This document shows positions 20,221 through 24,579 of a stretch of 64,000 bases of DNA, one piece after another; the stretch's first letter is position 1; each line of letters opens with the position of its first letter. The position numbers and the translations under genes were made by a program. Where the stretch lies: contig JASBUR010000051.1 of the NCBI GenBank assembly GCA_030147805.1, positions 1 to 64,000 on the forward strand, written 5' to 3'. Source of the DNA: Sphingomonadaceae bacterium. Lineage in GTDB: Bacteria > Pseudomonadota > Alphaproteobacteria > Sphingomonadales > Sphingomonadaceae. Under the pieces are notes generated by a model, which saw only the letters and a list, made by a program, of their open reading frames with translations, was not told the origin of the DNA and searched no databases.

Positions 20221-20285
20221 GTCCGGGGAATGGTCGAAGCCGCCCGGCCGGTCAACTGCCTCTCCCCGCGGGGAGAGGCATCCAC

Positions 20286-20531
20286 CTACATGTCGACGCC
20301 GGCGGCGATCGCTTCGAGCTTCTTCACCCGTTCGCGCAGGTCGGCGAGTTCGATGCGGCTGCCGACCTGCGGCGGCGGCATCAACTCGTCGCCATGGGCC
20401 GCGCCGGTGCCGAGCTGCTGGCGCTTCAGTTCGAGCCAGCCCTTCCAGCTCCAGGCCCAGACCAGCCCCAGCATCGCCAGCGCCACGATCGAGCTGGCGC
20501 TCATCACCACGAGATTGGTTGTCTCCAGCAT
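20286..20531 (-). CDS. small membrane protein with C-terminal coiled coil (PspB-like array member 5)
   Basis: MLETTNLVVMSASSIVALAMLGLVWAWSWKGWLELKRQ ... IELADLRERVKKLEAIAAGVDM. Confidence 0.6.
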   Translation of the reverse strand: MLETTNLVVMSASSIVALAMLGLVWAWSWKGWLELKRQQLGTGAAHGDELMPPPQVGSRIELADLRERVKKLEAIAAGVDM

Positions 20532-20557
20532 GGGATCTCTCCCTTCTTCGGTTGGCT

Positions 20558-20791
20558 CTAGTCGCGGCCCAGCGCGTCGATCTCGTCGGCGAGGCGGCTG
20601 CGCTTGTCGATGGCGATCCGCTCCAGCGTGACGACGCGGTCCTTGAGCTGCTGAACTTCATTGCGCAGGCGGGCATTTTCCGCCGCCGCGGCGGCGTCGT
20701 CCTGCGGGCTGCGGTTGCGATAGCGGTTGGCGAAGATCCGGCCGATCACCACGATCGCCACGATCAGCACCACCATCTCGAAAGGGTTCAT
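20558..20791 (-). CDS. small membrane protein with C-terminal coiled coil (PspB-like array member 4)
   Basis: MNPFEMVVLIVAIVVIGRIFANRYRNR ... ENARLRNEVQQLKDRVVTLERIAIDKRSRLADEIDALGRD. Confidence 0.7.
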   Translation of the reverse strand: MNPFEMVVLIVAIVVIGRIFANRYRNRSPQDDAAAAAENARLRNEVQQLKDRVVTLERIAIDKRSRLADEIDALGRD

Positions 20792-20816
20792 CTCGATACT
20801 CCCCAAAAACTGTTGG

Positions 20817-21083
20817 TCAGTTGACGCGTTCGTCGCGCAGCGCGTCGATCTCGCCGGCGAGCGTGCTGCCGCGATCGGTGGCGATGCGTTCGAGCACGCG
20901 GACGCGCGCCTCGAGCCGTTCGACGACCGCCGTTTGCTGCATCGCGCGCTCGGCAGCGCCGGAGGCGAGCAGGTCGAGCTGCTTTTCCTTCAGCTTCATC
21001 CACCGCTTGAGCATGTCGGCGGCGATGCCGAGCGTCATGGGCAGGCCGATGACGACGACGAAGAACAAGACCCAGCTCGGCAT
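20817..21083 (-). CDS. small membrane protein with C-terminal coiled coil (PspB-like array member 3)
   Basis: MPSWVLFFVVVIGLPMTLGIAADMLKRWMKLKEKQ ... VVERLEARVRVLERIATDRGSTLAGEIDALRDERVN. Confidence 0.7.
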   Translation of the reverse strand: MPSWVLFFVVVIGLPMTLGIAADMLKRWMKLKEKQLDLLASGAAERAMQQTAVVERLEARVRVLERIATDRGSTLAGEIDALRDERVN

Positions 21084-21094
21084 CTCGCAGCCCC

Positions 21095-21418
21095 TCAGTT
21101 GATCTTGCTGTCGCGCAGGCTCTCGATCTGGCGATCGAGTTGCGCGGTCTGGTCGGTGGCGATGCGCTCGAGGACGGCGGTGCGGTCCTTGAGGCTCGAC
21201 AGTTCGGCGCGCAGCTGGGCGTTTTCGGTGGCCAGCATGCGCAGGCGCTCGGTCGTCTCGGTCGACGCGACCGGGTGGACGGCCTTCCCCCAGCTGTTTT
21301 CGAGCGGGTAGCCATGCTTCACGCGCAGCCAGGTGGTGAACACCCAGCCGGCGATCGCGGCGAAGCCGACGAGCGCGAACACGGGCGCCATGGTCTCGAA
21401 GAAGGCGAGCTTGTCCAT
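21095..21418 (-). CDS. small membrane protein with C-terminal coiled coil (PspB-like array member 2)
   Basis: MDKLAFFETMAPVFALVGFAAIAGWVFTTWLRVKHGYPLENSWG ... LSSLKDRTAVLERIATDQTAQLDRQIESLRDSKIN. Confidence 0.7.
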   Translation of the reverse strand: MDKLAFFETMAPVFALVGFAAIAGWVFTTWLRVKHGYPLENSWGKAVHPVASTETTERLRMLATENAQLRAELSSLKDRTAVLERIATDQTAQLDRQIESLRDSKIN

Positions 21419-21444
21419 TTTCTGTCCCCTTTGCGTGCGCGCGC

Positions 21445-21741
21445 TCAGCGCAGCGCGTCGATTTCCCTGGCGACCCGGTCGGCCGGGTCGGTGGCGATCC
21501 GTTCGAGCACCGCGAGCCGCTCCTCGAGCCGCGTGACCTGGCCCTTGAGCCGATCGTTCTCGCTGGTCAGCAGCTCCATCTTGCGGCTCGTGCCGAGATC
21601 TTCCCGACTGTGCGTGCCGCCCCATTCGCCCTCTACCGGGTAGCCGTGACGGGCGCGGATCCAGTTGTTGATGAGCCAGCCGGCGGTCGAGATCGCGACG
21701 ATCGCGATGACGAAGAACGGTCCACCGAAATTGAATTCCAT
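21445..21741 (-). CDS. small membrane protein with C-terminal coiled coil (PspB-like array member 1)
   Basis: MEFNFGGPFFVIAIVAISTAGWLINNWIRARHGYPVEGEWGG ... VTRLEERLAVLERIATDPADRVAREIDALR; HGYP motif shared with member 2. Confidence 0.7.
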   Translation of the reverse strand: MEFNFGGPFFVIAIVAISTAGWLINNWIRARHGYPVEGEWGGTHSREDLGTSRKMELLTSENDRLKGQVTRLEERLAVLERIATDPADRVAREIDALR

Positions 21742-21763
21742 GACGATCCTCCCTCGGCGCCGA

Positions 21764-22144
21764 TCAGCGCAGGTTGTCGATCTCGCTCGCCAGGCGGCGG
21801 TTCGACGAGGTTACATAGCCTTCGATGTCACGCAGCCGGCGGTCGACGTCGCGGAAGCTCGAGTTGACGTCGCGGATGGTGCGCTGCGGCGCGATCCGGG
21901 CGTTCTGCCAGAACTTCTTGGTATCGGCGTCCTCGTCGTAGAGCGCGTAGGGCTTCTTCTCGGCGATCCAGGCGGCGATGAAGTAGCCGATCAGCAGGCT
22001 GCCGCCGCTGAACCAGATGCCGACCGCGGTCAGGATGCGGACGATGGTGACGTCGACCCCGGTGTAGTCGGCGATGCCGGCGCACACGCCCAGGAACTTG
22101 GAGTTGCGCTTGTCGAGGTAGAAGCTAGTGCGACGCGCGGACAT
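21764..22144 (-). CDS. pspC: phage shock protein C
   Basis: FYLDKRNSKFLGVCAGIADYTGVDVTIVRILTAVGIWFSGGSLLIGYFIAAWI PspC domain; C-terminal extension DVDRRLRDIEGYVTSSNRRLASEIDNLR. Confidence 0.93.
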   Translation of the reverse strand: MSARRTSFYLDKRNSKFLGVCAGIADYTGVDVTIVRILTAVGIWFSGGSLLIGYFIAAWIAEKKPYALYDEDADTKKFWQNARIAPQRTIRDVNSSFRDVDRRLRDIEGYVTSSNRRLASEIDNLR

Positions 22145-22406
22145 GGGGCAGCTCCTTGATGTCAGCTGAGTGGTCCTGGATGCTGGCTTCGCGCCAGCGG
22201 GGGTTCTCGGCGGTCATGATGCGTTCGATCGAATGCAGCCGATCGTCGAGCCGGCGGGCGGTCTCGTGGAGGTTGTCGAGCAGCTGCTCGTCCTCCATCG
22301 ACAGGCCCCGCGAGCGCTTCCACTGCGTGGTGTAGTGGAAGATCAGCCACGGCAGTCCGATGAACAGCATGCCGCAGATGGCGATGGGGACGAGGACGTC
22401 TTCCAT
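22125..22406 (-). CDS. pspB: phage shock protein B
   Basis: VPIAICGMLFIGLPWLIFHYTTQWKRSRGLSMEDEQLLDNLHETARRLDDRLHSIERIM. Confidence 0.88.
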   Translation of the reverse strand: MEDVLVPIAICGMLFIGLPWLIFHYTTQWKRSRGLSMEDEQLLDNLHETARRLDDRLHSIERIMTAENPRWREASIQDHSADIKELPHVRASH

Positions 22407-23080
22407 TACTCGGCTGCCTTCTGCTGGGCGACGCGGTTCTTGAGCTCCTCGAACTCGGCGTCGACGGCGTCGCCGGTGCGCAGCTCGGCGAACTCATCCT
22501 CGAGCGTACGGGTCTTGCCCAGCTCGAACACCTCGGCGCGGCCCTCGGCGAGATCGACGCGGCGTTCGAGGATCTCGAACTTGGCGAAGGCCTCGTCGAC
22601 GCGCGGACCGGCGTAGATGTTGCGCATCTTGGCGCGGTTGGTCGCGGTCTCGAGCCGCGACAGCACCGCGTTCTGGCGGCCGCGCGCCTCGCGCAGCTTT
22701 GCCTCGAGCTTCTGGATGTCGGCTTCGTGATGCATCAGCGCTTCGTCGAGCGCGCTGATCTCGCCCTGCATCTGCTGCGCCATCGAGCCGAGCTTGGCCT
22801 TCTCGACGAGCGCCGCCTTGGCGAGATCCTCGCGGCCCTTCGACAGCGCCAGCTCGGCCTTCTCGGCCCAGTTCGCCTGCGCGACTTCGATCTTGGCGAT
22901 CGTGCGGCGCATTTCCTTCTGGTCGGCGATGGTGCGGGCGGCCGAGGCGCGAACCTCTACCAGCGTCTCTTCCATCTCCATGATGATCATGCGGATCATC
23001 TTCGCCGGGTCCTCGGCGCGATCGAGCAGATCGGTGACGTTGGCGGCGATGATGTCTCGGGTACGCGAGAAAATGCCCAT
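22406..23080 (-). CDS. pspA: phage shock protein A
   Basis: MGIFSRTRDIIAANVTDLLDRAEDPAKMIRMIIMEMEETLVEVRASAARTIADQKEM. Confidence 0.95.
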   Translation of the reverse strand: MGIFSRTRDIIAANVTDLLDRAEDPAKMIRMIIMEMEETLVEVRASAARTIADQKEMRRTIAKIEVAQANWAEKAELALSKGREDLAKAALVEKAKLGSMAQQMQGEISALDEALMHHEADIQKLEAKLREARGRQNAVLSRLETATNRAKMRNIYAGPRVDEAFAKFEILERRVDLAEGRAEVFELGKTRTLEDEFAELRTGDAVDAEFEELKNRVAQQKAAE

Positions 23081-23151
23081 GTGACGAATACTCCTTGGAA
23101 AAAGGGGTGGCCCGGGCGGGGGAGGGGGATCCGCCCGGGCCTGTGGCCGGC

Positions 23152-23316
23152 TTAGGACTGGAGGGGTGAAGCCGGCTGTTCGTTCGAGGCCGTCTGGACC
23201 GGGTCGGGCGAGGGGGCCGGACCGGCAGCGGCGAGCAGGCAGGTGATGCCGAACAATGCCGCGCCGAGACCGCCCACGACAATCCGCTTCAGGTCTTCAT
23301 TCGAGTGCGCGAACAT
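23152..23316 (-). CDS. 54-aa small membrane protein leading the psp operon
   Basis: MFAHSNEDLKRIVVGGLGAALFGITCLLAAAGPAPSPDPVQTASNEQPASPLQS; lies between the sigma-54 promoter and pspA. Confidence 0.6.
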   Translation of the reverse strand: MFAHSNEDLKRIVVGGLGAALFGITCLLAAAGPAPSPDPVQTASNEQPASPLQS

Positions 23317-23382: not shown

Positions 23383-23401
23383 TTTGCAACCGGCGTGCCA
23401 A
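23383..23401 (-). promoter_or_regulatory. sigma-54 (RpoN) promoter of the psp operon
   Basis: Minus strand reads TTGGCACGCCGGTTGCAAA, exact match to TGGCACG-N4-TTGCW, divergent from the pspF-like gene. Confidence 0.9.
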
Positions 23402-23523
23402 ATTCCACGAGATGCATAATATCTAAGTATATCAAATGGATGTCCTTCCATCGAGAGGCTCGGCGGTGAACGCGGTATGAATGACAATTGCCAAGGGTTG
23501 GTGAAATCCGCTAATTCTTGGCG

Positions 23524-24579
<1,056 letters not shown>

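Follow-up and report, generated by a model that had tools for sequence, protein, structure and literature searches.

How a phage-shock (Psp) response with only PspB and PspC as sensors recognizes very different membrane insults is an unsettled question. It arises in a particular form in a 64,000-nucleotide stretch of a Sphingomonadaceae genome (GCA_030147805.1, contig JASBUR010000051.1, positions 1 to 64,000; hereafter the window), where pspA, pspB and pspC are followed by five further small genes. What might these genes do? We propose that this is an expanded Psp operon typical of Sphingomonadaceae, in which PspC-type tails carried on different transmembrane (TM) segments would add PspA sensors or docking sites, and we give this reading a probability of about 0.5.

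The window holds a complete psp locus (Table 1), with pspF on the plus strand and, divergently on the minus strand, a 54-aa ORF, pspA, pspB, pspC and the five small ORFs. The next gene on the ORF5 side is sufE-like, a name taken from reading its sequence. The original prediction had described five small same-strand ORFs of 77-107 aa behind pspABC, and their coordinates and lengths were as it gave them. It had placed the whole feature at 20286-23316; the array coordinates within this span are correct, while its end coordinate also takes in the 54-aa ORF. The latter is 57% identical over 49 aa to a counterpart in the closest relative (locus L116), has remote relatives upstream of pspA in eight other loci and matched no Pfam or NCBIfam family. 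It may encode another small Psp protein, either located in the membrane or exported.

Table 1. Features of the psp locus in the window.
Feature	Position	Strand	Description
pspF	23518..24579	+	Divergent sigma54 enhancer-binding activator; TIGR02974 492 bits (cut-off 443.55)
sigma54 -24/-12 site	23385..23400	-	TGGCACGCCGGTTGCA; 12/12 consensus positions; 320 nt upstream of pspA
54-aa ORF	23152..23316	-	Hydrophobic; between the sigma54 site and pspA
pspA	22406..23080	-	TIGR02977 271 bits (cut-off 243)
pspB	22125..22406	-	PF06667 95 bits and TIGR02976 78.5 bits, both above cut-off
pspC	21764..22144	-	TIGR02978 122 bits (cut-off 104)
ORF1 (type A), 98 aa	21445..21741	-	TM helix, RHGYPVEGEWGG juxtamembrane motif, coil, module
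ORF2 (type B), 107 aa	21095..21418	-	TM helix, KHGYPLENSWGK motif, coil, module
ORF3 (type C-like), 88 aa	20817..21083	-	TM helix, coil, module
ORF4 (type D, MNPFEMV start), 77 aa	20558..20791	-	TM helix, coil, module
ORF5 (type E), 81 aa	20286..20531	-	TM helix, first half of module only
22-bp palindrome	20258..20279		GCCTCTCCCCGCGGGGAGAGGC; perfect; directly after ORF5; no T-run

Elsewhere in the same genome (G000, contig C7:116341-116532) there is a second PspC-domain match, which lacks the tail. A search for structured RNA gave no Rfam match. A role in anti-phage defence was considered and rejected, as PADLOC returned nothing for ORF1-5 and weak coiled-coil matches for PspA only.

As predicted, all five small ORFs encode an N-terminal hydrophobic helix and a C-terminal coil. 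Their common element is a C-terminal module of about 30 residues with the pattern R-x4-ER[IV]xTD...EIxxLR. It is whole in ORF1 to ORF4 (48-58 bits against the module profile, E 7e-14 to 6e-17), and ORF1 and ORF2 match each other by BLASTP at E 4e-26. ORF5 has the first half only, RIELADLRERVKKLEAIAA (22.7 bits), so the earlier count of at least four ORFs sharing this motif is exact. By the positive-inside rule, 226 of 227 array ORFs have an N-out/C-in topology, as do 57 of 61 PspB proteins. The AlphaFold2 model of ORF2 (mean pLDDT 81) has a TM helix at residues 3-34 and a long straight helix at 53-106. No fold match to this model was found among solved structures, and these held no meaningful sequence relative of PspC or ORF1; the structure model of PspC (pLDDT 56) was too poor for use. 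None of ORF1-5 matched a Pfam or NCBIfam family above cut-off. Matches to bZIP, HALZ, DivIC and ZapB all fell below cut-off, and we dismissed these identities as coiled-coil noise.

The five genes are likely to be expressed together with pspABC. Sigma54 sites with at least 10 of the 12 consensus positions occur upstream of pspA in 34 of 49 relatives (shuffled controls, 0). A single psp transcript is likely because the best sigma54 match within the array scores only 8.5; judged from these site matches, one sigma54/PspF promoter probably drives pspA, pspB, pspC and the five small genes. Adjacent genes overlap by 4 or 1 nt at 75 of 177 junctions in the psp loci of the family, an arrangement that suggests translational coupling. 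The palindrome beyond ORF5 was found at one place in the genome, allowing up to one mismatch in its 20-bp core, which rules out a repeat family; it is a possible candidate for the end of the operon or of transcription.

Conservation in relatives, on which the original prediction turned, was found family-wide. We read 60 psp regions from about 40 genera with the module profile, 48 of the loci belonging to the window's own family (the family groups are kinship groups of the genome search, and the name Sphingomonadaceae comes from the titles of named relatives). Three to eight array genes follow pspC, on its strand, in 46 of these 48 loci. All 116 Sphingomonadaceae genomes searched have the module, with a median of 4 copies (range 1-7), against 0-2 per genome in other families of the order. 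PspC was found in 190 of the order's 201 genomes. The best 80 relatives of ORF2 in GTDB genomes, from Sphingopyxis, Sphingobium, Sphingomonas, Novosphingobium, Citromicrobium, Erythrobacter and other genera, all lie in psp loci, where 303 module ORFs are on the pspC strand and 0 on the opposite strand. Such genes are thus present in every Sphingomonadaceae genome examined, yet the five in the window escape the family models of both databases.

In most close pairs dN/dS was 0.08-0.33, with two diverged exceptions (0.68 and one saturated). By these ratios, purifying selection acts on the array coding sequences of close pairs. Between the window and its nearest relative, L116, ORF2 gave a value of 0.27, and ORF1, ORF3 and ORF4, whose sequences are short and GC-biased, gave 0.63-0.91; constraint on the latter three is therefore weak on that measure. 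ORF3 is 53% identical over 51 aa to an L116 ORF. ORF5 has no L116 counterpart, and the L116 contig (3.6 kb) stops shortly after the ORF4 relative. Since arrays recur family-wide, always on the pspC strand among the module ORFs of the best 80 loci and with dN/dS mostly in the low range, the array is more than a chance arrangement. Selection in close pairs together with same-strand conservation also excludes a repeat element or artefactual ORFs.

How old are the copies? The original prediction had invoked serial duplication. Duplication with a shared C-terminal surface is well supported; a recent date is not, and the paralogue types are old. All but one of 227 array ORFs find their closest match in another genome and not among the paralogues of their own, and recent tandem duplication in this genome is rejected on that ground; where the best match could be typed, it was of the same type in 148 of 149 cases (the types rest on simple sequence patterns and many ORFs are untyped, so type counts are approximate). 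Types A-E are therefore older than the radiation of the family. The 48 loci have 33 different array gene orders and vary in gene number too; type E, where present, is last in the array (40 of 40 loci).

The identity of the shared module is central to our proposal. Compared by hhalign, the module matched the PspC tail with a score of 38.8 (E 2.7e-8), whereas reversed tails reached 17.9 and 40 column permutations no more than 14.2. The tail of the window's own PspC, RRLRDIEGYVTSSNRRLASEIDNLR, is a relative of the array module by the same method. Conversely, the tail of TIGR02978 (positions 72-121 or 82-121) matches small ORFs encoded separately, downstream of pspC, in G473, G376 and G005. In L096/L097, from another family, both intermediates are adjacent, one a TM segment with a PspC-type tail (IERYVTSPEFGLNRQFRDLE) and the other a TM segment with a PspB-type tail (RLEDRVLQLERILDAEAPGWR); an L096 ORF aligns to PRK10697 positions 87-119. 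The EIxxLR ending is common to PspC tails and array tails in the window's family, and most other families have PspC tails with a different ending. At the level of single proteins and types the signal is lower: ORF1 matches TIGR02978 at E 0.04 only, and type E matches the module at E 6.5e-6 and the PspC family at E 0.2. On these profile comparisons, the array module is homologous to the C-terminal tail of PspC, with the caveat that coiled coils can resemble one another by convergence. Short, charged, heptad-rich sequences do weakly match many coiled coils, and the array could in principle consist of unrelated small proteins with a convergent tail, hitch-hiking in the operon. We consider this highly improbable: the R, E, I and L positions are near-invariant across 183 module copies, the reversed and permuted controls score far lower, the gene types are shared across the family, and intermediates exist.

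The tails of both PspC and PspB had been predicted to carry related versions of the motif. The controlled profile comparison bears this out, more weakly for PspB: module and PspB coil align over the first half only (E 1.6e-4, probability 51%). When whole families are compared, types A and C give alignments to PspB that span 58-66 columns and take in the TM segment, with probabilities of 90-91%, and ORF4 is the nearest of the five to PspB (PF06667 E 8e-4, TIGR02976 E 1e-4, both below cut-off). One possibility raised by these alignments is that the five proteins are extra PspB-type silencers, which pair with the PspC tail, keep the system off and set its threshold and do not dock PspA. It would agree with the title of a work listed as reference 15 in PMC5596341, according to which cytoplasmic PspB-PspC interactions silence the Yersinia response. 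However, the second half of the module, with its EIxxLR ending, is PspC-like and not PspB-like, and the module scores better against PspC than against PspB. We therefore regard silencing as an unlikely role for the array.

The C-terminal region of PspC binds PspA in both E. coli and Yersinia (PMC3068692, PMC5596341). In E. coli the leucine zipper of PspC is required for this interaction, and with PspB at hand a PspC fragment, 69-119, is enough to bind PspA (PMC3068692); the module region (PRK10697 87-119) falls inside this fragment. In the on state, binding of PspA by the C-terminal cytoplasmic domain of PspC frees PspF (PMC5596341). Because the PspC tail binds PspA and the array module is homologous to that region, we propose that the array proteins are PspA sensors or docking points. 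Each of the five is predicted to be a small inner-membrane protein with its N-terminus outside, one TM helix, a juxtamembrane stretch of its own and a cytoplasmic coil. Their differing TM segments would each sense a different membrane disturbance or partner, or associate with it. We further propose pairing among the common tails, and of these tails with PspB and PspC; by analogy with PspC, the tails may offer a surface for PspA binding. The added sensors or docking sites would release PspF and/or hold PspA at the membrane, and through the array the cell would probably gain interchangeable sensors or adaptors that all feed into one stress response. With the PspC output helix, or part of it, placed on 3-8 membrane segments per operon, the question of how different insults are recognized becomes testable by segment swaps or deletions.

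PspD and PspG are thought to be effector or scaffold proteins, and the array might likewise be an effector or scaffold set with no part in signalling, its hetero-oligomeric coiled coils tethering PspA polymers to the membrane or changing lipid packing. The high copy number, the likely co-regulation with pspA and the long straight C-terminal helix in the ORF2 model are all compatible with such a set. It is nevertheless quite improbable in our judgement, as the five ORFs have no PspD family match and their conserved part is the PspC tail, the known role of which is signalling. The original prediction had pictured a possible multi-subunit membrane scaffold for PspA; the published PspC data favour the docking or signalling tail that we propose.

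Zymomonas mobilis, which we take to be a sphingomonad, raises the expression of its psp genes when stressed with ethanol or xylose (PMC3495753, PMC8645129). Our literature search found no direct expression, interaction or phenotype evidence for ORF1-5 in any sphingomonad.

The module also occurs beyond psp loci. A module profile search across Alphaproteobacteria, suggested with the original prediction, pointed to restriction to a few families of that class. A search of the phylum overturned this: other classes have TM + module proteins, as single copies or a few, that lie away from psp and score below cut-off against the models of PspB and the PspC tail. Within the order but outside the window's family, a single copy stands after an rpoD-like or near a flagellin-like gene (names by sequence reading). 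The module is not exclusive to PspA signalling, because such related proteins occur outside psp loci, and a wider TM + module family may have expanded locally to give the psp array. Going further, there could be an unnamed family of single-pass adaptors with a PspC-type output helix, which Sphingomonadaceae diversified within psp as sensors and which elsewhere performs similar jobs in other envelope responses; this extension is tentative and we lean against it. If true, the single-copy members beside rpoD, flagellin or ECF-sigma genes would serve other envelope responses, and the sensors of the psp array would differ in their membrane segments but share a single PspA-binding output.

Several further gene neighborhoods were recorded. 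In L206 and L221, TM + module proteins are encoded divergently from the gene for an ECF sigma factor and from a putative anti-sigma gene. Family f8 has two genomes (L223 and L231) in which a TM + module protein with a VFEMVVLIV start directly follows an rpoD-like gene, and a second module copy lies at psp. In family f157 (L218 and L219) a neighboring pair of TM + module ORFs lies close to coaBC/dut-like genes and, in G386, away from pspC.

Compared with known systems, ORF1-5 resemble PspB in being small inner-membrane proteins with a single N-terminal TM segment, N-out/C-in orientation and a cytoplasmic coil, and in being encoded in what appears from its promoter and activator to be a sigma54/PspF-type psp operon; the first half of the module resembles the PspB coil motif RLxxRLxxIERI. 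They differ in that ORF1-4 have the extra EIxxLR second half and that a bona fide pspB is also present in the locus. ORF4, at 19.9 and 22.4 bits, is below the cut-offs of PF06667 (25.6) and TIGR02976 (51.7), and ORF1, ORF2, ORF3 and ORF5 gave no match to these two profiles. With PspC they share a same-register tail of about 30-40 residues (TIGR02978 about 81-121, PRK10697 87-119). Unlike PspC, they have no match to the PspC domain (PF04024), and their tail is on a different single-TM anchor. Homology to the PspC tail holds for the array module; ORF5 alone falls short of it, by the type E comparison with PspC. The PspD and PspG proteins of Enterobacteria are likewise small extra Psp membrane proteins, and their profiles did not match ORF1-5 at E up to 10. 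ORF1-5 thus lie below all PspB, PspC and PspD cut-offs.

The original statement that no functional description of such an array was known is too strong, since 'PspB duplicates' in psp operons, for example AOL22920.1, and PspC fused to a divergent PspB have been reported (Ravi et al. 2024, PMC11237479). The portions of that paper available to us state neither an array of 3-8 genes nor PspC-type tails on separate small proteins, and neither presence throughout Sphingomonadaceae nor conserved gene types. As far as this source extends, extra PspB-like psp genes are already known, and the array with PspC-type tails is a further form.
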